A stretch of DNA of 64,000 bases. Origin: Platerodrilus igneus. Taxonomy: Eukaryota > Arthropoda > Insecta > Coleoptera > Lycidae. The DNA lies in assembly GCA_036346225.1 (NCBI GenBank), contig JARFIW010001082.1:1178001-1242000 (forward strand), in the 5' to 3' direction. This document shows positions 621 through 55,242 of the stretch, in pieces. A program made the translations under genes and the position numbers. The notes under the pieces were generated by a model. That model saw only the letters and a list, made by a program, of their open reading frames with translations, was not told where the DNA came from and made no database searches. Position 1 is the first letter of the stretch. The number at the start of each line of letters is the position of its first letter.

Positions 621-664
621 ACATCTTGAAATTTTAATCTGTTGATTTGTGCATAAAATCTTTT

Positions 665-1785
665 ATGTCAATTGAATCGTTGATTGAAAACGTAAGAAAC
701 CTCCAACTATCAGACTCTAATACAGAAATAATAATGGAACAATTTAAAGTAGAGTATTTAAAGTGCGTGCCAGATTTTGATGGCAACCCAAATGATTTAA
801 ACGAATTTATTTCTTCCGCAGAAAGTATAATAAACTCATTTGTTGATCCGACAAAACCAAACACCTTTCTAAACTTATTCATATTTAAATCTATTTTAAA
901 TAAATTAACAGGTCGAGCCAAGGTCGCTGTTAATATACAACAAGTCAGCACTTGGACAGAATTAAAAAATACTCTTCTCAGAAATTTTAGTGATCAAAGA
1001 GATGATACTTGTTTAGTTCGCGATTTGGTGTTATTAAAGCAGGGAAATAATAAGCCTTTGGTATTTTACGAAAAATGTATTCAAATTTTAAATTTGCTGT
1101 GTTCGTTTGTAATTGCAAACGAACGAAATGAAAACGTAAAAGTAGCGAAACGAGAATTTTTTACTAAGCTGGCGTTAAAGTCGTTTCTTTGTGGTTTAAA
1201 GGAACCTTTGGGTAGTAGTATTAGAGCTATGAGACCGGACACCCTTCAAAGGGCTTTGCAATTTATTACGGAAGAAGATAACGTTAGATACTTTCAAAAG
1301 GACCAAGTACCGAATAACACAGGTAAACCTTGGGTAAATAATAATAAGTACGGGCAACCACCACCTAATTCTGATAAAAATAAATTCCCTTCGCAGCCGC
1401 TAAACATCAAACCTCGTTCAAATTTTACACCACAAAAATTTCCTACAAATGTTCAGACATTTGGAAAATCATATAATCAAACTTATCAGGGTCAAGCGTC
1501 CAGAGACTTTTTAAGCCGAACCCAAATTTTAAACCCGCTAATCCGGCAACCCCTATGTCTACTTCGACTAGGCAAACTTTTCAAAAAACTTTTCAAAATG
1601 TACCTAAACGATTTACATCGGAAGAATTATACAATCAAGAATCAGAGGAAAGTCAACCGGTAAGCGAAACCTTGCATTATCAGGATACTACCGATTCCAA
1701 TTTAGAAGAATTTGAAAGTGACGATTACGCTTGTAATCAAAATTCAAATTTTCAGGACGTTCCGATGCGGAACGAGATTACGTAA
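665..1785 (+). pseudogene. gag: Errantivirus Gag with one frameshift
   Basis: This encodes the capsid/nucleocapsid precursor that forms the particle. The first ATG of the frame is at 665 (the frame is open slightly upstream from a TTG). About 280 residues of helical capsid-like sequence are followed by an Asn/Pro/Gln-rich linker. Near 1477-1505 the reading shifts by one base from frame 2 to frame 1; the acidic C-terminus continues in frame 1 to the TAA at 1783-1785. No CCHC zinc knuckle is visible, which is usual for errantiviruses. The 3' end overlaps pol. Confidence 0.85.
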
Positions 1786-2759
1786 TTGATTTCAATAATC
1801 ATGAAAGCAGAATAAGTAAACTTCCTTATATATACCTTCCCGAACAGGAATTATCCCTTTTAGTTGATACAGGAGCCACTTCCTCCTTTATAAATTCCGA
1901 AATAGTAACCAAATATTGGCCGGAAAACGTAAAATATGACCCAATTACAATTTCAAATTGTTTCAATAAATCCAGACAAAATTATTCCGTGGTAATTCCC
2001 AGTTCAAAAATTTTTAATGATCCTTCGAAAATGCTTAAATTTCACTTATTTAAGTTTCATAGAATTTTTAAAGGACTAATAGGTATGGATAATTTAAAGG
2101 AATTAAAGGCCAAGGTAGATTTGGAAAACAACCTTTTAATTACACCTCAAGCGAAAATTCCCATTTACTTTCAGGAACCGGTTAGCGCTATAAATTCTAT
2201 AGAAGTCGAACCCCTGATAGAAAAGCAAATTCAATTGAAAGTGTCAGTAGAAAACGGTGAAATTGTTATACCCTCTATAAAAACGGAACATACAGAAATA
2301 CCTGAATGTTTAACAATAGCAAAGAACGGTTTAGCGTTTACAACAATTAAGAATTTTTCGGATTCTCCTGTAGCCATAAATGTATACGGACCAATCAATG
2401 TCCTTCCTTACCAAGCGAATCAATTTGAACGCTCGTGCGAATTAAATCATTATGACGCCGAGACAAAAAATTTTGATACATCTCTCATCAGAACGGATCA
2501 TATGAATTCGGAAGAGAAACATGCTGTTTTAAAACTGTGTAATAAATATTCCAAGATTTTTCATATCGATGGACAAAACCTTACATTTACAAATAAAATT
2601 AAGCATTCAATACGAACCACGGATGAAACTCCAGTCTATTCTAAAACCTATCGATACCCCTTTGTTCACAAACAAGAGGTAAAACATCAAATTGACAAAA
2701 TGTTAAAAGCCAAAATTATAGAACCTTCTACTTCCCATGGGCTAGTCCTATTTGGGTAG
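1737..2759 (+). pseudogene. pol: Pol part 1: protease and start of reverse transcriptase
   Basis: Frame 3 opens just after a stop at 1734-1736 and overlaps the gag end. The aspartic protease active site reads LLVDTGATSSF at about 1860-1895; this enzyme would mature the polyprotein. The flap and C-terminal part follow, then a linker, and the first residues of the reverse transcriptase appear from about 2630. The frame ends at TAG 2757-2759 because of a single-base loss near 2736, after which the reading moves to frame 2. Confidence 0.85.
1746..1752 (+). promoter_or_regulatory. Slippery heptamer for gag-pol -1 frameshift
   Basis: A AAT TTT, in gag frame, fits the X XXY YYZ rule. It lies inside the 1737-1785 overlap of gag (frame 1) and pol (frame 3), so a -1 slip here would enter pol. 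A stimulatory downstream structure was not checked. Confidence 0.6.
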
Positions 2760-4095
2760 TCCCAAAGAAACTGGACGCTTCGGGTAAACAGAAATGGCGC
2801 ATAGTAGTTGACTACCGTCGCCTTAATGAAAAGACAGTCGACGACAGGTATCCTTTACCAAATGTCAATGATTTACTGGACAAGTTGGGTCGATGCCAAT
2901 ACTTTTCGACACTCGATTTGGCCAGTAGCTTCCATCAGTGAAATGAACCCAAAGATGTCGAAAAACTGCGTTCAATACAGAAAATGGACATTTTCATTTC
3001 CTTAGGATGCCTATGGGATTAAAAAATTCCCCTTCCACTCTACAACGTGTAATGGACCATGTTCTACAAGGTTTATCGGATATCTGTGGAGCCTATATGG
3101 ACGATATCATTATTTGGAGTGTTTCCCTTCAGGAGCACCTCACTAATTTAGAAATGGTGTTCAAAAGATTAGAGGAATCTAATTTTAAAATTCAGTTAGA
3201 TAAATGTGAAATATTGAGAAAAGAAATCGCGTTCCTAGGACACGTGGTCACGCTTGACAGCATAAGACCTAATCCAGAAAAAGTTAGGGCTATTACAGAC
3301 TTTCCTTTACCTTCGACTACTAAACAAATAAAGGGATTTTTAGGTTTATTAGGGTACTATCGTAAATTTATAAAAAACTTCGCTGACTTGACTAAACCCA
3401 TGACAAGGTGCCTTAAAAAGAACGCTAAAATTGAACATACCCTCGATTTTATGGAATGTTTTGAATTGTGTAAAAATGTATTAATCAATGAACCGATACT
3501 TCAATTTCCTGATTTTGAACGCCCGTTTAATATAACGACCGACGCAAGTAATGTAGCTATAGGTGCAGTATTATCACAGGGGCCAATAGGTAAAGACCTT
3601 CCAATTTCATACATGTCTCGCACACTTAATGATAGCGAGCGCAATTACAGTACTATCGAAAAGGAACTTTTGGCAATTGTTTACGCAGTAAGATATTTTA
3701 GACCATATGTGTATGGGCGTGAATTTAACATAATCACGGACCATAAACCGTTGCAGTGGTTGTTCTCATTAAAAGAGCCCAACTCGAAACTTTTAAGGTG
3801 GAGACTAAAATTAGACGAATATAACTATAATATTATTTATAAGAAAGGTAAACTAAACTCCAATGCCGACGCCATGTCACGCGTTGAAATTCATACTAAA
3901 GAAATAACTCAGAATTCGATTGTTGATAATGATCAATCCCCCGAGGAACCTACTAACGATGAAATTTCAGATAACCAGTCTATACTTGTAAACCTTGATG
4001 AAGAAGAACACTTTAATGATTCCGAAGAAATGACGCAACACTCGAACAATGACGAAAACCTGATCCTGGAAGTACCGATTTCAGAAAACCACTAA
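2738..4095 (+). pseudogene. pol: Pol part 2: reverse transcriptase and RNase H, broken
   Basis: The reverse transcriptase resumes in frame 2 ([13 protein letters not shown], then [12 protein letters not shown], the first catalytic Asp region) and meets an in-frame TGA at 2939-2941. A further one-base change near 2961-2965 moves it to frame 1. From 3007 on, frame 1 carries the polymerase catalytic motif YMDDI, the thumb/connection, and RNase H motifs TDASNVAIGAV and TDHKPLQWLF. It ends at TAA 4093-4095 after an acidic stretch. The enzyme would copy genomic RNA and degrade the RNA strand, but this copy is not translatable. Confidence 0.88.
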
Positions 4096-5448
4096 ATTAT
4101 GGTATTAATCAAATAGTAGTGACAATTGTAAATTTTCACCTTGTTTGCCAAAAATTTCATATTATCGTGATCGACAAAGAATGCATATTCAACTATCAAA
4201 AAATAATTTTGACACTGACTTAATCGATTTTATCAAACAATTTATCGTCCCCCAAGTAACGTATTATATCTATTTTAAGGACGAGGACGCGTATACGAAA
4301 TTCTGTGAAGTACTAAGACGAAATTTTAATTGGCAATCTTATAAATTTATAAAATGTAACAAAATTTTAGAGGACGTTGAAGATAATCGGATCGAAGAAA
4401 TTATAAACGCATACCATGCCTCAAAAACGAACCATCGTGGTATTAATGAAACCCACGAGAGAATAAAATCTAAATATTATTGGCCAAATATGAAAATTTC
4501 TATCCAAAACCTAATAAATCGTTGTAATATATGTCAGACAACTAAATATGACCGCCATCCCTTAAAAATCTCTTATAATATAACCCCTACAGCAACCAGA
4601 CCTTTTGAAATGATTCATATTGATACATTTTCGGTGAAAAAAACAGATTTCTTACAATTATTGATACGTTTTCAAAATATGCGCAGGCATACCAAATTAA
4701 TGCTATTAATTCAATCGAGGTTATGCAAGGCTTAATTAAGTTTTTTTGTCATCATGGAATTCCCTCCACAATAACGTGTGATTTAGGTACTGAATTTAAA
4801 AATAATATTTTAGAAGAGTTGTTAAAATTGCATAAGATAGATGTACACTTTACTTCATCAGGAAACCCAAGTTCAGACGGTATTATCGAACGGTTGCATT
4901 CCACCCTACTCGAACACCTAAGAATCCTAAATAAAATGCACCCTTCCCAAGACATGAAAACCCAAATGTTATATGCCATATTAGGATACAATAACTCAAT
5001 CCATTCTGTGATTAAATTAAAACCAGTAGAGGTAATCAATGGTCATATATCAGACGACAACCCCTTAAACATAGATTTAGATGCTAAAATCATATCCACT
5101 TATGTAGACTCCCATAAACAAAAAACTAAATTGCTCTACGAATCCATAAACGAAAAACTAATTCGAAACAAAGACAAGGTGGCATCTAAACTAAATGAGC
5201 GGAATAAGGATGACCCCGCATTATCAGTAGGAAAAGCAATAAGATTAAAAACCCCTGTAAATATTACGGAAAGAGATAAACTCAGAGATCGATTCTCTGC
5301 TGAAACAAAAATTAGCCAACTTGATGCGGTGACTAAAACGTTGAAAACCGAGAGTCGACCAAACATTAGATATCATTTTAGGGGCCTACAAAAGCCTCGT
5401 CAAACAGACCCCAGTTGTTCAAAGTTCATAGATTCTGATTCTGAATAA
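4096..5448 (+). pseudogene. pol: Pol part 3: integrase, broken
   Basis: The zinc-binding N-terminal domain is in frame 2 (4145-4735): two His spaced as HASKTNH, then CNIC. The first catalytic Asp is in MIHIDTF (about 4620). A one-base loss near 4652-4656 moves the reading to frame 1, where the second Asp (TCDLGTEF, about 4780) and the catalytic Glu (DGIIERLHS, about 4888) are present. A basic C-terminal domain follows to the TAA at 5446-5448. At least two more frame changes lie between 4090 and 4155. All three catalytic residues survive although the frame does not. Confidence 0.85.
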
Positions 5449-10050: not shown

Positions 10051-10672
10051 GAGATTTTTAGTTATGTAAATTAAAAACATTCATAAAATTTGAAGAGAAT
10101 CAAAAATATCTCAGAAAGTAATGGATTTAGGTATAGGGAATGCTTAACAAAAATGAAAGGACACTTAATGAACTATTCATTGTAGCAATAAAATTGGTAG
10201 CGTGCCAATTAAAAAATTTTTTTAAATTGCATTTTGCAAAACCTGCCACACCCTGTATACTGTGAAGAAATTTCAAAAAAGTGATATTTACAAATATACT
10301 ATGGTATATGGTAAAATTTTGTGAATCTTAAAAATTAACATAAGTTGTGTATTAGTGCAGTGCCAATGTATCTAATTGTGGTCATTTTTTCTAAAAACAG
10401 TTGAATATCTCAAAAACTAAAAGGAGTAGACAGATACAATTTGATATAAAATTAAAGCTCTTTTTATGGGCTTTTCAAAAATGTAATAATATATAGGGTG
10501 TTCTATTTTAAAAAATTTAATTTTAATATGCCCTGGAATTATGAAACACCCTGTATGCTTCCAAATATTTTTAAAATGTGCACTTTAGGCATGCCTAATA
10601 TGTCTCCAAGTTTCGTTTACGTAGCTTTCATAATAACGGAGTTATCGACCGTTGCTACACTAAAAACTCACC

Positions 10673-10676
<4 letters not shown>
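10051..10676. other. No gene; MITE-like stretch with repeated CACCCTGTA ends
   Basis: CACCCTGTA occurs at about 10250, 10550 and 10670, and the inverse AGGGTGTT at about 10494. These resemble ends of mariner-type MITEs, and one small candidate is 10494-10556. Boundaries and target duplications could not be fixed. Confidence 0.35.

Positions 10677-10703
<27 letters not shown>
10676..10703. repeat. (AT)n microsatellite
   Basis: An uninterrupted AT dinucleotide run of about 27 bases at the left edge of the foldback structure. Confidence 0.9.
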
Positions 10704-10709
<6 letters not shown>

Positions 10710-10967
10710 CAGAAGAATAATCCACATTTGGAATGCAAATGAATGCTTGATATATATTAATAGTTATTAAGATGAAATGAAAACCCAACTTTGTATTTAA
10801 AGTTGAATTACCATTTCAAATCGAACTAGTAATTGAAAACCACTAAAAGAACGGCTACAGCAGGATTTGAACCTGCAACCTCTGATTCTCCGGATCATCT
10901 TAATAACTATTAATATATATCAAGCATTCATTTGCATTCCAAATGTGGATTATTCTTCTGTATTAAT
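10703..10967. repeat. Inverted repeat with 73-bp arms enclosing a half tRNA-like sequence
   Basis: The arms 10703-10775 and 10895-10967 are perfect reverse complements by eye. Between them lies a framework sequence followed by the 3' half of a tRNA-like body on the minus strand (about 10850-10896), broken off at its anticodon loop. The segment 10759-10896 recurs inverted at 11176-11314. Confidence 0.8.
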
Positions 10968-11146
10968 AATAATATAATTACATGTTTGTATTATTCCGAA
11001 CGTTGCAAAAATGGGATGATCAAGTTATTAGTACATGAATTATGTATATAACTAGATTCAATTTCCTTAAATGCAAGACGTAATTGAAAATCATTAACGA
11101 GGGCCAAGCTTCAGTAGTATTAAGTATAACATCATCTAAACAATTA

Positions 11147-11220
11147 GGCTAGATAGCTCAATTGGTTACAGCACTGATCCGGAGAATCAGAGGTTGCAGG
11201 TTCAAATCCTGCTGTAGCCG
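11147..11220 (+). ncRNA. tRNA-like cloverleaf within a repeat module
   Basis: The 74-nt sequence folds as a tRNA. The acceptor stem GGCTAGA/TGTAGCC pairs at 6 of 7 positions, the anticodon stem CTGAT/ATCAG and T stem GCAGG/CCTGC are perfect, and the B box is GGTTCAAATCC. The anticodon loop is CCGGAGA, giving GGA at positions 34-36 but C instead of the invariant U33, and there is no long serine-type variable arm. It is therefore not a standard tRNA-Ser. It is flanked by a conserved framework shared with 13761-14568. It is more likely a tRNA-derived mobile module than a working tRNA gene. Confidence 0.55.
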
Positions 11221-11308
11221 TTCTTTTAGTGGTTTTCAATTACTAGTTCGATTTGAAATGGTAATTCAACTTTAAATACAAAGTTGGGTTTTCATTTCAT
11301 CTTAATAA

Positions 11309-11314
<6 letters not shown>
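11176..11314. repeat. Right arm of a larger foldback structure
   Basis: About 138 bp here is the reverse complement of 10759-10896, giving a nested palindrome around 10968-11175 with an (AT)n run beyond it. Confidence 0.75.

Positions 11315-11353
<39 letters not shown>
11315..11353. repeat. (TA)n microsatellite at mariner target
   Basis: A TA dinucleotide run; the mariner element begins after its last TA (11352-11353). Confidence 0.9.
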
Positions 11354-11356
<3 letters not shown>

Positions 11357-13752
11357 TGTGTACAGTATAAAATGCAGTACATGGGGATCTTGGAAACTGT
11401 AGGAGATACGATCTTGGTTAAATGACACAAAAGTTACATAATCATGAGGGTATCTCAGATCGGTTTTCAAATTTCAAAAATTTTTCATAGGTTACTAGAT
11501 AGAGGTAAAAAACACAAAATTGACGATTTCTTTATTTGCTCGTAGTTAGTCTACTAATTGAAATAGAATGTTCAAATTTGGTACATCATAGTAATTCCCC
11601 ATTGCGCTTCACATTTTTAACTTAGATTTTGTCTAGGGCATCTAGATTTTGCGTGACGATGTTCAACTTTTTATTTTTAAAAAGCCGCCATATTGGATTT
11701 TTACATTTTTGAAATGCTGACAAAAAAACCCTTTCCAAAGAGGTATAACATGGCTATGTTTGATTGAATCAAAATATTAAAAATAACATAATTATGTTTT
11801 GGTCGTGGTAGGCTTTAATTTCCATTACGACAATGAGAAACAATTGCTCAACATCTGAGAAACGTCAAAGTTTGTCCTTTATTTTATGTTTCAAGTAGTG
11901 CAGTTTAAAAAAACAGTTAATTAATTTACATAGAAATTTAAGCAAAGCATTTGCGCTTGAAATGGATCGCTTTACTAACCGTGATAAATATAAAATGTTA
12001 GAATGTTTTATTCTTTCTGGAAGGAATGATGTTAAAGCCGCTGAATTGTATTTAACTAAATACCCAGAAAAACATCAACCAAACAGATGTATGTTTCGGA
12101 GATTACAAAATAATTTAATAAATTATGGTAGTTTTGGCTTGTCTAAGAGAAATAGGCAAATTAAAAAAGATAATGAAACAGCGTTTTACAAACAGTTGTC
12201 GAAAATCCTCGTACTTCTCTTAGATAAATTCAGAATATAACAGGTGTTGCTCATTCTACGGCAAGAGCTATTTTAAAACGTTTCAAGTACCATCCATATC
12301 ATGAACGATCATGTCAGGGATTGCGTACTGAAGATCAAATTTGAAGAATGGAATTTTGTGCTTGGTACATCAGAAAGTGCAACGAAAATTCAAATTTTGC
12401 ATATACAATTTTGTGGTCTCACGAAAATCGATTTACGAATTGTGGTATGTTCAACCGCAAAAATACAATTTTTTGGTCAGATGAAAATCCACATTTGAAC
12501 CGCCAAGTTAGACATCAAGTTAAATGGGGATTCAACGTCTGGGTTGGTATTATTGGAAGGTACATTATAGGTTCGTTTTTTTATGATGCAAATTTAAACT
12601 CTGCGAGATACTTAGATTTATTGCAGGGAAATGTGGCAGATAGACTAATGGAGCTTCCACTCGCTACTTTGCAAAATATGATTTTTCAAAATGATGGCGC
12701 TCCACCCCACAATGCTCTGATTATTAGAAATTTTTTTAATTCTGAGTATAATGAAAACTGGATTGGAAATCGGGGACCAATTAAGTGGCCGGCGAGATCA
12801 CCGGATTTAACTCCTGTAGATTTCTTTATATGGGGCCATTTAAAAAGTCGTGTGTACTCAAAAACGTATGATAATGCAGGCCAATTACAAGAAGCAGTCC
12901 AAGAGGCCGTAAATAAAATAACTCCAACTATCATAAAACGATCTTGTAAAATTGTTTATAAAAGGTGTTGGTTGTGTGTTCAACAAAATGGGGGGTTATT
13001 TGAACATTTAAAATAAATAATGAATTCATGTGGCTGACTATTGTTATATTTTTTTCCTTGATTGTTAATTTGCAATTGTCTGAACATGAATGACAACTAA
13101 AAACAGCTTAAATAATATTTTGTATTGAACAAATGCTAGTTTGTATTTATTCTTTGTTAATGCATAGTTATGTAAGTTCTGATTAATACAGATTTATTTT
13201 CAATTTTCTACGTTTTCTACTGTTTTTATTACCACTGAAAATTGAGTTTAAAATTTTTAAAGCAATTGTTTCTCTTTGTCATAATGGAAATTAAAGCCTA
13301 CTACGACCAAAACATAATTATGTAATTTTTAGTGTTTTGATTCAATCAAACATAGCCATGTTATACCTCTTTGACAAGGGTTTTTTGTCAGAATTTCAAA
13401 AATGTAAAAATCCAATATGGCGGCTATTTAAAAATAAAAAGTTGAACATCGTCACGCAAAATCTAGATGCCCTAGACAAAACCTAAGTTGAAAATGTGAA
13501 GCGTAATGGGGAATTACCATGATGTACCAAATTTGAACATTCTATTTCAATTAGTAGACTAACCACGAGCAAATAAAGAAATCGTCAATTTTGTGTTTTT
13601 TGCATGTATCTAGTAACCTATGAAAAATTTTTGAAATTTGAAACCCGATCGGAGATACCCTCATGATTATGCAACTTTTGTCCCATTTAACCAAGATCGT
13701 ATCTCCTACAGTTTCCAAGATCCTCATGTACTGCATTTTATACTGTACACTG
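11354..13752 (+). mobile_element. Tc1/mariner-type element with very long terminal inverted repeats
   Basis: The 2399-bp element is flanked by TA on both sides (11352-11353, 13753-13754). It begins CAGTGTGTACAGTATAAAA and ends with the near-exact inverse. The inverted repeats run about 490-500 bp each (11354-11853 and 13262-13752) with scattered differences, far longer than the usual 20-30 bp for mariners. It contains one decayed transposase. Confidence 0.88.
11962..13016 (+). pseudogene. Mariner transposase, DD41D type, inactive
   Basis: Starts at ATG 11962 and encodes an N-terminal helix-turn-helix region followed by the catalytic domain. A frameshift near 12192-12198 and stops at 12225-12227 and 12342-12344 break it; the rest is in frame 3 to TAA after 13016. 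The second and third catalytic Asp are in FQNDGAPPHN and LTPVDFFIWG, separated by 41 residues, which places it with the DD41D (rosa-like) group rather than DD34D mariners. The first catalytic position reads ILWSHENRF, with His where Asp is expected. It would cut and paste the element at TA, but cannot now. Confidence 0.82.
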
Positions 13753-13898
13753 TATATATTAGGTAGTTAATTACACAAGGTAAGGTGATAAATACTATGG
13801 TGTTATAGTGAATAAGATGAAATAATAACTTAGACTTTTATGCAAAGCCCAAATGATCATTTCAAATCGGGCTAGTAATTGAAAGATGGAAAATATAA

Positions 13899-13971
13899 GG
13901 TCTTGGACAGGACTTGAACCTGTATCTTGATTTTGCCGGAACCATGCGGTTACCAATTACGCCACCAAGAC
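13899..13971 (-). ncRNA. tRNA-like cloverleaf, first 404-bp unit
   Basis: 73 nt on the minus strand. The acceptor stem GTCTTGG/CCAAGAC pairs at 7 of 7, the T stem ACAGG/CCTGT at 5 of 5, and the anticodon stem TGGTT/AATCA pairs with one G-U. The D stem has one mismatch. The loop CCGGCAA would give GGC at 34-36, but position 33 is C. Box A is TGGCGTAATTGG and box B GGTTCAAGTCC. The C33 argues against a decoding tRNA. Confidence 0.55.
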
Positions 13972-14302
13972 GGATGACGACAATTGGGAAATTTACAAAT
14001 TTAAATCCTGTACAGAACTATGCATAAACCTAACTTTTAATTACGTTTGGCATTTTTGTCAATTATATCTGACATTGTCAAGTTTTTGACTTATGTCAGT
14101 TATAGACAGGAAGCTACGCTCAAAATTATGGCTATAAGCCAAGTATTAAGTATATAAATATTTTAGGTAGTTAATTACACAAGGTAAATTGATAAATACT
14201 ATCGTATTATAGTGAATAAGATGAAATAATAACTTAGACTTTTATGCAAAGCCCAAATGATCATTTCAAATCGAGCTAGTAATTGAAAAATGGAAAATAT
14301 AA

Positions 14303-14375
14303 GGTCTTGGACAGGACTTGAACCTGTATCTTGATTTTGCCGGAACCATGCGTTTACCAATTACGCCACCAAGAC
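14303..14375 (-). ncRNA. tRNA-like cloverleaf, second 404-bp unit
   Basis: Same body as 13899-13971, but the D stem is fully paired (GCGT/ACGC), so all four stems are intact. It has the same CCGGCAA anticodon loop with C33. It is part of a repeated unit, so it is probably tRNA-derived rather than a decoding tRNA. Confidence 0.55.
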
Positions 14376-14568
14376 CGATGACGACAATTGGGAAATTTAC
14401 AAATTTAAATCGTGTACACGACGATACATCAACCTAACTTTCAATTACGTTTGACATTTTGGTCCATCATATCTGACATTGTCAAGTTTTTGACTTATGT
14501 CAGTTATAGACAGGAAGCGACGCTCAAAATTATGGCTATAAGCCAAGTATTAAATATATAAATATTTT

Positions 14569-16170
14569 AGATAGTAGGGCACATTTATTTCTCAAGAACT
14601 AAATAATATACTAGGGGACACTCCATATGAACAATACTGCAAATAATAGCTATTTCTAAAAATTTCTTTGTTTCAAACAGAAGTTAGATGTTCATTGTCT
14701 GCTTTACCAAACTAAAGGCTTGGTATTCAATGTATTATGTGCTGTTTTAGATATAATTACATGCAAACTGCCTCAATCCTTAATTTGATACGAATTTAAA
14801 AGTTTGCTGGCTCACGTTGTGACGCCAGAGTAACTATTTTTGCTAGGCCTTACGTTGGATCGGTGCCACTAAAACGACTTCTGTTTTACAAAAGACTGGA
14901 ACGTCTTTTTGTTATATTAAGGCGCTAGAGAACAAAGTCTTCCGACAAAGCTAGGGGTCTATTCCTGGGTAGAGCAACGAGAAGTGGGGGGTAAGTCGAA
15001 TTCTGTTTGCAAACCAAAGTTGAGCTAAATCAAATAGGCGCCATCATGTCCTGAGATAATGACGATAATTGCAAGGCACAGTTCTAAGGGCGGACGTGGA
15101 AACCCAAAGAACAAATGATCGCCTTCGTTAACAAAAACCTGTCTTAACAAAATAAGACGCTGCTCCTGTAAGAAATTACAATGGTTAAATAAATAAAAAA
15201 AAATAGAACACCACTTGTGTCCTATAAACATATATAAAGAAATAATAAAAAATTATTTCCAATATAATATTGGCATCAAATTATTACTCAGATTAATTCT
15301 AGCTTTATGTAATTAGATTTGATCGTACCTGACCAAAATAAAAGTCTTAGATTTTGGACTAAATGTTTACTAAAAAACTCTTTTAAAATATCGGAACTTG
15401 TAACAAAAAATGGTCATAATCAACTACATCAAATTTAAAGTTTTAGCTTTCCTTTTTTTCTTTCATTAATCAAGCAACTTTACTTTAATCATGAACTTGT
15501 TATACAAATTAAAGTAATAATGATTGGTAAGCATAACACAGTGAATTAAATTCTAACCTGGGCAGATCTTTTCAGGTAGATAACAAACTACTTGAACCTA
15601 ACATAATGAGAATTTGAGCTTTCAAATTTACGTTTAATAATCTATGTATAGATAAAGCTGGTCACAAAAATAGGCATGTTTGTTTAAATTGTATTACAGC
15701 TGCTCAAAGCATTTGCTTTCTAGACAACATCTGTGAACTGTACAAAATAGAAAAATATGACGTCGAAAAATCATGTTGAATTTATCGACGGTTCATATGG
15801 AGCAAAACTTGTTTTTTTAGAAAGCTAATTCAACAAAATTTCGTTTTACAGCTTGTAAAACCAGCTCAACAATTAATTGAAGTTTATACAAATTACGTGT
15901 ACTAAACATAAAAGCAAGTTAACATGTTCTAAACTTTGAAACACATGCAAAAAAAATCTTACTTGCTAATTACGAACCAAAAACTGCATTAGCCGCATCA
16001 CAACAAACTGAGACGGGAAATCCGTTCTTCAAGCAAAGTTAACAGCATTTTTAATTTGAAACGACTCCATCCAAATTAACTTCTATAATTCCTTACCAGA
16101 CAAATTTCTTATTAGGCAAAGTTTAAATCGGCTGTTCTTGTCGAATTATATTTGTTGCATTATATTTTAT
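14569..16170. other. No recognised gene
   Basis: About 1.6 kb of AT-rich sequence with no convincing open frame. The 68-residue minus-strand frame at 15025-15231 matches nothing I recognise. It may be upstream sequence of the BEL/Pao element that follows. Confidence 0.5.
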
Positions 16171-30000: not shown

Positions 30001-30450
30001 CGCACTTACACTTACGCTTACGCTTGCGCTTGCGCTTGCGCTTGCGCTTGCGCTTGCGCTTGCGCCTGCGCCCGCGCCTGCGTCTGCGCCTGCGTCTGCG
30101 TCTGCGTCTGCGCCTGCGTCTGCGTCTGCGTCTGCGCCTGCGTCTGCGGCTGTGCCTGCGCCTGCGCCTGCGTCTGCGCATACACCTGCACATGTGCCTG
30201 CGCCTGCACATGCGCTTGCGCCTGCGCCTGCACCTGCACCTACACCTGCACCTGCACCTGCACCTGCACCTGCACCTGCACCTGCACCTGCACCTTCACC
30301 TGTACCTTCACCTGCACCTGCACCTGCACCTGCACCTGCACCTACGCCTGCGCCTGCGCCTGCGCCTGCGCCTGCGCCTCCTCCTGCGCCTGCACATGCA
30401 CATGCGCCTGCGCCTGCGCCTGCGCCTGCGCCTGCGCCTGCGTCTGCGCT
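30001..30450. repeat. Hexanucleotide array (TGCGCC-type) with drifting unit
   Basis: About 75 units of a 6-bp repeat. The unit changes along the array: ACTTACGCTT-type, then CTTGCG, CTGCGC/CTGCGT, CTGCAC and back to CTGCGC. The period is kept at 6, so long open frames appear in all frames on both strands. They are artefacts. Confidence 0.95.
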
Positions 30451-51069: not shown

Positions 51070-54000
51070 AAAAAAAAGAGAAGGAAAAACGACAAATATT
51101 CGCCGTAAAATTCACCATGTCTCGACGCTTATTTTTAAAAACAACGTACTTGAGATAGCAGAAAACCGTCATGATGACGCTGCTAAGGCAGTTTTACGAC
51201 GAATTATTTACGAACACGATCTGGTCGCTGCTGAGGCTCGATATCATTCTGACTGTTTTAAACATTTTATGAAACCTACCATGGGTGGTACAGTTGGTCG
51301 TCCCGAAGATAGTAGAGTATCAGTAGCAATGGACAAAATATACTCATTTATTGAGAATAATGATGAATCTCAGTTTACTTTAAATGAATTAAAAGATTTG
51401 TGCAAGGATTATATTCCAGATGACAAAACTATTAAAAGTAAACTTGTCAATAAATATGGTAAAAAAAATTATTATTACAACTAAATATACCTCTTTAACT
51501 GTTATTTGTTTTCTGGACACACAATACGATATTTTAAACAAAGCTTGGTATGACAACAGAAAACATAATGAAGCAGAAGAACGTCTTCGAATAATAAAAA
51601 CAGCTGCAGCAATTATTAGGGAAGATATTAGATCAGTAATAGTAAATAATGAAAATTATCCTCCTCCCAGCAAAATGTTCGAGAATATGAATGACGAAAT
51701 TCCAAATTCTCTGACGATTTTATTAGAATAAATAATTTTAAAAAATCGGAGATATGCAGTGGATCGTCTTAAACTAAAATGCACTGCTATTAGTCATGCC
51801 ATTCTGACAGCTGTTCGTCCAAGATTATTTATATCGCAATTGCAACTTGGTCTAGCGATATTTTGTCACCGACGATTTGGTTCCAAACGGCTTGTAGACG
51901 TATTATCATCCTTCGGAATGTGTGCATCATACAAGGAAACAGTCAAATATGAATCAGCAACAGTTCACCACCCCCAGCCATTTATTTTACCACCAGAAAC
52001 TGGAGCTTTCTTACAATATGCCGCTGATAATGCTGATATAAATGTCTATACACTTGATGGTTATAACACTCTTCATATAATGGGTATAATTCAAATTTTA
52101 ACACCTGCTAGTGCAATTGCAGCTGATAAACCAATATCACGTTCTAATGTCATTCTCAGTACAAGCGATATTGCGGCAAAAGCTAAAGTCCCAGTGCAAA
52201 TTTATGAAAATAATGGTGTTATAGGATTAAGTAAAATTACGGTGGAAAATATTTTGGACGAAAATATAACTGTTTCTATGCTCCGAAAGATTGATATATT
52301 GTGGATGACGAAAAATGGAGTAATATCTCAGAGCTGCCAGGTTGGAGTGGATATATAGAACGTTTGACGTTGCAAAATCGTAATTTTTCTACATCTCGAA
52401 TTCTTTTATTACCATTTATTCATGAACCAGCAAGTAACTATAATACTGTTTACTCGACATTACTACGCGCCCTGGAGAATGCAAAAAAATATGGCCACGA
52501 AGAATGCATTATTACTTTTGACCAGTCTTTATATGCAAAGGCACGAGAAATTGTTGCAGCAGCTTCTCAAAAATTACCATTATTAAAAATTATTGTAAGA
52601 CTTGAAGGTTTTCATTTAATTATGTCTTACCTAGGATCGATTGGTTATATTATGCAAGGAAGTGGACTTAAAGAAGCTCTTTCCATTATTTATGCACCTA
52701 ATTCTTTTGACAAAATGTTGAATGGGCATGCTTATTCTAAAGCTGTCAGAGGTCATTCATTAATCCATTTGGCTTTGGCAATAATTATATCGAAAGATCT
52801 TACTATTGATGAAGACTTGGACTCGACTCTTCGTACTACTATCGACGATGTGATGAATGGAACTATATCGTATGATGACATTGAAAATTGTGATAATAAT
52901 GCTGAAGATTTACTTAATAAATTCAATAAAAGTTTACAAGAATATGAAGAAAGAGGTGCCACTTCAAAATTATGCGTACGATATTTTTGTATGGTGTCAA
53001 TTGCAAAGAGTATATAAGAGCTGAACGAATGGGAGATTGGCAAGCACATTTAAATAGCGTTAGACAAATGCTTTCATATTTTCATGCATCTAGCCATTAT
53101 CCTTATGCTAAATCCGCACACTTATATCTCCAAGATATGATGAAGTTAGAGCAGTCTATGGATCCGCTTGTTTTTCAGAAGTTTATTCCGGGATTCTTCA
53201 CTGCTCGAGGCAGTGATAAATTTAGTTGTGGAACTTGGTCTGATATGATCATTGAACAGTCTCTCATGAAATCGATGAAAACTGACGGAGGTGTAGCACG
53301 AGGGAGAAGCACACAAGAAAGTGTTTTAAGCAAATGGGCTTATGGCATGCATGCAATGATTAGTGTGTCCGAAGGTTTGAAGTTCTTATTAATGTATCAA
53401 TGGATACAACAGATCAGCATGTAAATGCAAGGGATTCACGCGTAAAAAGAGATAATGAAGACGTAAAAAAATTAATTCAATGGTTTTCTTGTTATAATCC
53501 CTTTCCAGTAGTTTCGAAGCTAATGTCAATATTAAGTGGAGTCGTCGGCGATGATAGAATAAATTGTCACAATGCTTATGAAGTGGGTCTTGTTACAGTT
53601 ACAAACATGATTGGTCAAAAATTTGATAGCATCAAATTAAAACGTGCTGACAGAGTACTTCCTCTTTTAACAGTATCCAGCTCTGTGAAAGTTCACAATG
53701 AAGAAGTACTTATCGATCCTTTATTATTATTTCAACGTATAAGTATTACAAAACGATTTGACGATCAACTTCAAAAATTTTTGAAGTATGAATTAGCTCC
53801 ATTCCCATTATCACTCTTCGACGAGAATGGAATGCGTAAAAATCAAAAATCTGCTATTTATAAATGTTTTCAACCAGTAAATGTTGAATTAGATACCTCT
53901 AATGTTACTTATATCATCGATGGAGGATTTCTTTTACACCGTGTTGTATGGAATAAAGGAGAAACATTCGATACAATTTTTAATGCATATGTTCATTATG

Positions 54001-55242
54001 TACTTAAATATTATGATAATAACGTTATAATTGTATTTGATGGATCTTCAAAAAAACGTCAAAGCTGGTGAACAATGTCGTCGAAGTGCAAAAGTTTCAT
54101 CATCTACTGATATTCTCTTCGATGAATCCATGACTATTTCAACAAGTCAAGAAAAATTTTTTGGGAATGCAAGCAACAAGCATAGATTTATTTCTATATT
54201 ATATGAAAAATTTAAAACTGCTAATATTAATGTAAAACAAGCTCGATCTGATGCTGATGTTCTCATCGTTGAAACAGCAATTGAAGAATCCGGCAGGAGA
54301 ACAAGTATCATCGTAGGTGAAGACGTAGACTTACTAGTATTATTGATTGCACGAACGCCTAGTGATAAAATCATATATTTTTTAAAACCTGGGAACGTAA
54401 AAGTACAAACAACAATTTATTCTTCACAAAGCTTAAGTTTGTATCCTAAGTGTAGAAATCACATTTTATTTTTACATGCAATGACCGGTTGCGATACTAA
54501 ATCAGCTTTTTTTCACAGAGGTAAAATTAACGCCTTTAAATTATTTGAAAAGAATAAGGAATTATTTAATTACACCAATGTCTTCACTCAGAAACAATGC
54601 TCTCCTGATGTGATTTTTGATCATGGCATTCGTTTTCTACTGGCTTTGTATAAAGCACCAATGAAAGAAGTGTCTGTTGATAATCACAGATATTTGACGT
54701 TTGCGAAATTAACGCAGTTCAAAAAATCTGTATATTTATCGTCTCTCCCGCCAACATCTAGTGCTGCTCAACAACATTTATATCGCGTTTACTACCAAGT
54801 GCAAGTATGGCTTGGCAACGACCTCAACCCTCTAGACTGGGGATGGATATTGCAGGAAGAAATTTTAGAACCAGTTAAAACTCTTCTTCCACCCGCTCCT
54901 GATAGTTTACTGAACACTATTTTTTGTAATTGTACGAAGGGATGTACCTTAAACTGCGGTTGCAGGAAAGTTTGGTTGTACTGTTCACCAGTTTGTGGTA
55001 ATTGCCATGGTCAGGATTGTTTAAACGTATCACCTGATGCGCTTAATGACGCTACTAATGACGAGCCTGCTGAGGATATAGATCCATCGTGTTTCTTGAC
55101 TAAAACTATGGAAATATATGAACCAGAGGAGGATGAAGACAATGAAGAGATGGAGATGATAAGCAAAATAGAGTCAAGAAGAACAATAAAAATAATTGCA
55201 TCTATGTTGGATGTGTTGTCTACCACGGAAATAAATCTGTAA
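51070..55242 (+). pseudogene. Large nuclease-like gene (XPG/FEN-type core, Cys-rich tail), broken copy
   Basis: A roughly 1380-residue protein is spread over three frames (51137-51484, 51420-52358, 52301-53017, 52972-53424, 53400-54071, 54031-55242). The C-terminal third carries marks of a flap-endonuclease-like fold: YIIDGGFLLHRVVW and VIIVFDG (about 53910-54045), ARSDADVLIVETAIEE and IIVGEDVDLLVLL with acidic residues (about 54240-54345), and LHAMTGCDTKSAFF resembling the helix-turn-helix after the core. A Cys-rich block of the CNCxKGCxxxCGC type follows (about 54925-55020), then an acidic end. The N-terminal two thirds match no domain I can name. A stop at 51729-51731 and about five frameshifts break it; the N-terminus is abutted by a LINE. 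Similar multi-copy proteins occur in arthropod and cnidarian genomes, function unknown. Confidence 0.7.

Follow-up and report, generated by a model that had tools for sequence, protein, structure and literature searches.

A ~400-nt non-coding repeat with a tRNA-like domain in the beetle Platerodrilus igneus, probably mobilised by Penelope-like elements

The window analysed here is a 64,000-nt stretch of the genome of Platerodrilus igneus (Lycidae; assembly GCA_036346225.1, contig JARFIW010001082.1, positions 1,178,001 to 1,242,000 of the forward strand), and its subject is a repeat with a transfer RNA (tRNA)-like domain. The repeat is present as two neighbouring insertions, a head-to-head array at 10676-11353 and a separate tandem pair at 13752-14575, which together hold all four units where an earlier note on this DNA had placed them, three of the four on the minus strand. 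The repeat unit is a non-coding element of ~400 nt, larger than the unit of that note. In the array, which lies between (TA)n runs, two arms of a single ~400-nt unit meet, the minus-strand one at 10692-10897 and the plus-strand one at 10895-11322. Both members of the pair are on the minus strand; they measure 404 nt each, follow one another in tandem and are 94% alike. The sense strand is the one bearing the tRNA, and along it the 5' region is followed by the tRNA, the framework and then the tail. Site 1 is the end of the framework, after CTTAATAACTATT, and site 2 lies ~55-60 nt past site 1, with a short stem-loop (CATTTG-CATTC-CAAATG) and another motif like CTATTAATA ahead of it. The features, in window coordinates, are as follows.

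10676..10704: (TA)n run bordering the A/D array on the left
10692..10897, minus strand: arm D, from site 2 in the 5' region of the next unit via tail and body to a stop within the tRNA-like domain
10852..10897, minus strand: truncated tRNA-like body of arm D
10895..10897: head-to-head centre junction, where the arms overlap by 3 nt
10895..11322, plus strand: arm A, a full ~400-nt unit and the end of the preceding unit
11080..11089, plus strand: 5' strand of helix P1 (GTAATTGAAA), complement of 11234-11243
11147..11220, plus strand: tRNA-like domain A, anticodon loop CCGGAGA
11234..11243, plus strand: helix P1, 3' strand (TTTCAATTAC), where the conserved framework begins
11255..11298, plus strand: framework hairpin P2; A-type copies carry the same hairpin
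11300..11312, plus strand: region of site 1 (CTTAATAACTATT), outer end of arm A
11310..11353: (TA)n run bordering the A/D array on the right
13752..14163, minus strand: unit B of the 404-nt tandem pair, with the 3' end near site 2 and next to TATATA
13805..13898, minus strand: framework B (3' strand of P1, hairpin P2, site 1)
13899..13971, minus strand: tRNA-like domain B
14164..14575, minus strand: unit C of the tandem pair
14209..14302, minus strand: framework C
14302..14376, minus strand: tRNA-like domain C, anticodon loop CCGGCAA

On the tandem reference, arm D mapped to unit positions 65->262 (97.6%) and arm A to 384->9 (98.1%). Cloverleaves A, B and C were found by both ARAGORN and Rfam, and a partial one in D by Rfam; the Rfam tRNA model gave 58.9 bits at 11147-11220 (+), 51.3 bits at 13899-13971 (-) and 56.5 bits at 14303-14375 (-), in domain C. 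Frameworks A and C were identical in 80 of 101 aligned columns, a match equalled in 0 of 500 shuffles, and their tRNA-like bodies (heads) in 51 of 70. The earlier note had described a framework followed by a cloverleaf in all four units; the positions and the shared framework stand, while the unit at 10759-10896 has only the 3' part of the tRNA, cut in the anticodon arm. The joint changes in the acceptor stem and the outer T-stem pair, and the anticodon loop CCGG with C33, were seen in the window copies as that note had reported them.

The unit includes ~235 nt between site 1 of the preceding unit and the tRNA, and copies run on across unit borders in tandem. Because GTAATTGAAA lies in the 5' region of A and TTTCAATTAC at the framework start, the two can bracket the tRNA as helix P1, and the remainder of the framework folds as the long hairpin P2. 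P1 appeared in the predicted folds of A, of the copy at locus L002 and of C; it was absent from that of B, in which the 5' strand is mutated. Upstream of 12 complete heads the 5' strand of P1 was present at seven and none was seen at four, the match at L084 being the framework of the other arm. P2 formed in 14 of 16 framework copies folded (not in L081 and L090), with 19 pairs in the A-type L077 and 20 in the C-type L025, whose sequences differ. The sense RNA folded more strongly than shuffled sequence (z = -5.9 for A, -8.2 for the L002 copy and -4.8 for C) and more strongly than the antisense (-3.2, -6.2 and -0.9, respectively), and control stretches of the window gave -1.0, -0.3 and 0.1. The fold of P1, tRNA and P2 is kept, and it is stronger in the sense strand. 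Between tRNA and framework, TTTT was found in 119 of 122 head matches, in which overlapping loci were counted repeatedly.

The host assembly (2.71 Gb, 1,723 contigs) was scanned with the pattern GGTTCRAATCCN{10,40}TTTCAATTAC, which joins the tRNA T-arm to the framework start. This gave 7,186 exact matches with 0 for the reversed control; an exact-pattern scan of viral contigs had no match. The arrangement was read from the first 100 of the 7,186 matches listed, among which several tRNA bodies occurred with one framework. Same-strand neighbours less than 1.5 kb apart were spaced 385-405 nt in 27 of 29 cases, and opposite-strand neighbours within the same distance were '-+' in 17 cases and '+-' in 0, with 17 clusters containing both strands. 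Close neighbours among the matches listed are tandem or head-to-head. A first query with A had returned only 5 places, while many A-type copies were among the matches listed, so first-look counts are a poor guide to abundance. Long tandem arrays of at least 4 units were observed at L014 and at L027/L032/L037 (one place), perhaps as the onset of satellite-like runs; that of L027 extends beyond the fetched stretch.

Covariation was analysed in 12 heads, consisting of 10 complete and distinct heads from 20 subfamily stretches, L025 and window unit C; the other 10 stretches were dropped (nine with incomplete heads, and one that was an additional copy in the L077 array). Heads were segmented in the best-paired register, and kin copies were counted several times. 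With this treatment, 243 of 252 stem cells were paired across subfamilies and 12 of 21 stem positions showed two-sided changes. Each real head had 19-21 of the 21 pairs, and 1,200 shuffled heads treated alike had a mean of 11.9 and a maximum of 17. The close subfamilies of L025 and L086/L087 differ by paired changes at three places, the second pair of the acceptor stem (T-A against C-G) and pairs 27 and 28 of the anticodon stem. What the earlier note had seen in the window, a body that changes under a kept shape while the framework stays, thus holds outside it too. The loop CCGGNNA with C33 was seen in 10 of 12 heads by the chosen register, the loops of L090 and L092 differing. Functional tRNA genes have U33 and a usable anticodon loop, and C33 stands in 10 of these 12 heads, which do not qualify as such genes on this count. 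We lean towards one ancestral head that was altered with its partners kept, rather than repeated tRNA capture, since the CCGG loop is common to the heads with two exceptions.

The ends of the arrays were mapped in three sets. The A-type set comprised five places mapped on a tandem template; the position-picked set comprised the 11 shorter of the 17 mixed-strand clusters, avoiding choice by template similarity; and the C-type set comprised 25 places picked by similarity to the window copy, 16 of them two-armed, and is biased towards site 2. Each A-type place consisted of one minus and one plus segment (5/5), one of them ending at site 1 and its partner at site 2 (5/5). One end of each kind was present in 10 of the 11 position-picked arrays (L093 and the left end of L097 were placed by sequence), and the distances from framework start to (TA)n fell into two classes, 58-78 and 116-130. 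Distances were used here because at some ends of the site 1 kind (L098, L100) the BLAST alignment continues into the TA tract. In the two-armed C-type arrays the second arm ended within ~10 nt of site 1 in 10 of 16, and both arms ended at one and the same site in 0 of 16. The element thus has two preferred ends, and its target is (TA)n, which was found at both ends in all five A-type places; (TA)5+ stood at both ends in 8 of 11 position-picked arrays and, among the 16 two-armed C-type arrays, at both ends in nine, at one end in six and at none in one.

The centres vary. Overlaps of at least 2 nt between the arms were found in 4 of 5 A-type, 14 of 16 C-type and 7 of 11 position-picked arrays, of which one or two could be chance BLAST extension, and the remaining arrays were gapped. 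A clear peak of inner complementary DNA (cDNA) 5' ends at the tRNA start, as an RNA polymerase III start would give, was looked for in the C-type arrays and not found; unit 155-263 held 15 of the 38 ends, against an expectation of 10.3 (P 0.06). In the same arrays 10 of 38 cDNA 5' ends lay at unit 296-325, the foot of P2, with 2.8 expected for this interval, which was chosen post hoc.

The host genome contains Penelope-like elements (PLEs) with the same target. A search for the GIY-YIG nuclease gave 6,529 first-look candidates, and 149 of the 150 scored ones matched. RVT_1 and GIY-YIG domains were found in both open reading frames (ORFs) tested, at L071 (C753:4181600-4185600) and L072. L071 has two ~421-nt direct pseudo-long terminal repeats (pLTRs), 98.8% alike, and terminates in (TA)16; both pLTRs contain a hammerhead-like motif, and the motif ends ~120 nt ahead of the (TA)n; at L053, L054 and L064/L065 (one place), inverted arms are 98.7-98.9% alike. 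Out of the 149 matches 30 loci were compared, of which L043 was set aside as a host gene; the other 29 were identified by their nuclease. A (TA)7+ run lay 200-1100 nt downstream of the nuclease start in 21 of these 29 and within 1,500 nt before it in 7 of 29, and as a control 1 such run was found in 59.9 kb of the window outside the element. A hammerhead motif was present in 13 of 29. The open frame of L043, which we take by recognition to be an SLX1-like host gene, was rejected as an autonomous partner, and the framework copy nearby was taken as an old insertion. This old copy and a small neighbouring insertion at L066 were the only two matches between the units and the 30 nuclease loci, and both were unrelated.

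The hammerhead motif was absent from both strands of both unit templates; in 65 loci it had 4 matches, all outside the arrays and none within them. Rfam at E<=5 gave no hammerhead in the window stretch, and at E<=0.1 Rfam also missed the motifs of L044 and L053. Two hammerhead-like motifs (CTGATGA...CGAAA) were noticed in array flanks, at L020:477-501 and L037:2102-2128; they may be copies of PLEs or retrozymes.

Taken together, the sequence features suggest that the element is probably a non-autonomous, retrozyme-like retroelement of ~400 nt, non-coding, carrying a tRNA-like domain and mobilised by PLEs. The link is drawn because the two-site ends, the head-to-head order and the tandem units match PLEs. 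The units have tandem or partial-tandem, pseudo-LTR-like organisation, an inverted head-to-head copy, a tail on one arm and the target of the resident PLEs, whose GIY-YIG elements likewise end in (TA)n. Published PLEs are similar in tandem and inverted pseudo-LTR-sized repeats, one-arm tail, AT-rich target and junction overlaps, as far as the available text of these reports goes (PMC11167929, PMC3846280). In rotifers, inverted pLTRs are described, one with a tail, together with microhomology at a junction (PMC3846280). For an Anolis PLE protein, cutting of both strands of AT-rich DNA in vitro is described, with reverse transcription starting at two adjacent internal RNA sites whose interval equals the genomic tail (PMC11167929); the published tail is 30-40 nt, against ~55-60 nt in the tRNA element. 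Animal retrozymes, which are short, tandem, non-coding hammerhead repeats, are thought to be mobilised by PLEs (PMC7229834, PMC8969392). They carry a type I hammerhead, whereas the units have a tRNA-like domain and no hammerhead that we found, and head-to-head (TA)n pairs are a feature of the units that was not found described in the available text on retrozymes (PMC7229834). Unlike PLEs, the units lack an ORF and carry a tRNA-like domain; no hammerhead was found in them, and they did not share sequence with the loci compared. In the literature searched, in which coverage of subscription journals was mostly lacking, no tRNA-bearing PLE-type element was found.

We infer mobilisation by a PLE protein with RNA as the template, and the steps may be as follows. 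Tandem units would be transcribed into RNA that spans unit borders. A Penelope-type protein (reverse transcriptase and GIY-YIG nuclease), encoded elsewhere, would cleave both strands of a (TA)n microsatellite. Synthesis of cDNA would begin at site 1 from one target end and at site 2 (the 'tail') from the other, and both cDNAs would proceed towards the 5' end of the RNA and halt at variable points. The cDNAs would then be joined, often across a few common bases, to give a head-to-head pair with the tails outward.

Several observations weigh against this mechanism. No sequence common to the units and a PLE pLTR was found among the 30 of 149 nuclease matches compared. The cDNA of the Anolis PLE is described as starting in an AC-rich stem-loop not homologous to the target (PMC11167929), and in the present element both sites are AT-rich and lie beside (TA)n, so that priming by annealing is indistinguishable from internal starts of the PLE type. 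The second arm of two-armed C-type arrays ended elsewhere in 6 of 16 (L012, L013, L016, L026, L030, L033), L099 was the sole exception to the end rule among the position-picked arrays, and 4 of these 11 arrays had a gap instead of an overlap at the centre. Six C-type places were single-armed, as is the B/C pair in the window. L019 had a plus-then-minus, tail-to-tail neighbour, 87% alike; these units are read as two insertions at one (TA)n, as in the window.

A tRNA-headed short interspersed element (SINE), moved by a long interspersed element (LINE) that prefers (TA)n and giving inverted pairs by twin priming, is an unlikely explanation, although it accounts for the sense order of tRNA, body and AT-rich tail, for the good tRNA model scores and for the AT-rich target, and in tRNA-derived insect SINEs (e.g. 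Helicoverpa, Plutella), according to partial descriptions, the tRNA-related part likewise stands 5' of a conserved body in the sense strand. A SINE starts at the tRNA with a Pol III (RNA polymerase III) transcript through the body, whereas here ~235 nt upstream of the tRNA are part of the unit, tandem copies run on over the borders, the TTTT after the tRNA is an expected Pol III stop and the (TA)n insertions are two-armed, each arm with a different preferred end. To our knowledge, two arms with two different preferred ends are no hallmark of LINEs. A plain tRNA-headed SINE with two heads was also dropped, the upstream region, the tandem read-through and the head-to-head arms belonging to the element in other copies. 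The earlier view that this is not a standard SINE is borne out, yet the tRNA is nonetheless 5' of the framework in the sense strand. Break repair, in which (TA)n break ends would be extended on a tandem array or an extrachromosomal circle and then united through microhomology, no dedicated enzyme being required, would explain the overlaps at the centres, and (TA)n being self-complementary, both ends could prime at AT-rich sites. It appears quite improbable given thousands of copies, one end at each of two preferred sites, and host GIY-YIG elements that use the same target.

Inverted arms in a TA microsatellite also recall a DNA fold-back or Mutator-like element targeting such microsatellites (MuTAnT or Tetris type), both kinds of which are on record in the partial sources available. 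The earlier note had considered a fold-back element, and many copies are indeed inverted pairs (17 '-+'); in the DNA-transposon sense the term does not fit. The centres of the pairs vary and often show short overlaps, the preferred outer ends are of two different kinds and the flanks are (TA)n, a pattern that reverse transcription of the Penelope type, begun on either side of the target, would be expected to leave. The arms are moreover unequal in length, unit number and centre, the fold is stronger on one strand, and the outer ends differ by the tail, so that there are no matching terminal inverted repeats; such an element is very improbable here. A Helenus-type terminal-repeat retrotransposon in miniature (TRIM) with the tRNA in its LTR, the tandem copies being the LTRs, would agree with a tRNA within a ~400-nt direct repeat and with the tandem pairs, and Helenus TRIMs are described as non-autonomous retroelements with a tRNA-like sequence in the repeat unit (PMC10886601). 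The flanks are mostly (TA)n, against duplications of 4-5 bp in the available description of Helenus (PMC10886601), and head-to-head order is common. In the arrays mapped, neighbouring units directly adjoin, so that there is no space in which a primer-binding site or polypurine tract could lie; an internal region that holds a primer-binding site and has an LTR on either side was not seen in these arrays, and the TRIM was rejected as extremely improbable.

Within PLE-dependent mobilisation, the tRNA-like domain may stand in for the hammerhead of PLEs and retrozymes and act as a promoter or as a signal for stability or processing. The distance from the end of the tRNA to site 1 is ~95 nt in unit C, and the position of the tRNA before site 1 resembles, suggestively, that of the hammerhead before (TA)n in L071. 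Most likely the domain serves the RNA, in processing, stability, export or pairing of two RNAs. A promoter function is less likely: with TTTT after the tRNA a Pol III transcript is expected to be short, and copies that cross unit borders point to a template RNA longer than such a transcript. More tentatively, the element may represent a class of mobile RNAs that depend on PLEs and have, between the arms of a conserved helix, a coevolving tRNA-like domain in place of the hammerhead, with the tRNA fold working in the RNA life cycle. If so, the fold could be used for processing based on RNase P/Z or a ligase, for nuclear export or for RNA-RNA pairing, and the self-complementary CCGG loop could pair two RNAs, so that both target ends would be primed simultaneously.

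Other repeats were noticed in the window. A Tc1/mariner-like element (family assigned by eye) occupies 11349-13759 in (TA)n between the two tRNA-element arrays, with ~500-nt inverted arms (within 11349-11848 and 13261-13759) that are 94% alike and a broken transposase-like frame at 12348-13016. Over 11310-13759 the tRNA-element insertions stand tail to tail and seemingly have one (TA)n run in common. Broken retrotransposon-like frames (reverse transcriptase/integrase-like by eye) and a further set of long frames lie at 647-5448 and 51759-55242. At 10201-10680 there are repeated CACCCTGTATA-type stretches, perhaps the ends of another short transposon family, and at 30021-30449 a 6-nt repeat CGCCTG in 71.5 copies lies next to AC-rich repeats.

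In conclusion, the element links tRNA-bearing short repeats with Penelope-type elements, two families that are as a rule treated separately. Copies of it can be reported as tRNA genes by tRNA gene finders, and ARAGORN called tRNA-Ser(GGA) and tRNA-Ala(GGC) in them. The genome offers very many natural insertion products in which two preferred starts of reverse transcription can be read, and questions on PLE mobility become testable with them: by what means the two target strands are primed, what significance the tail has and whether mobility requires the ribozyme.

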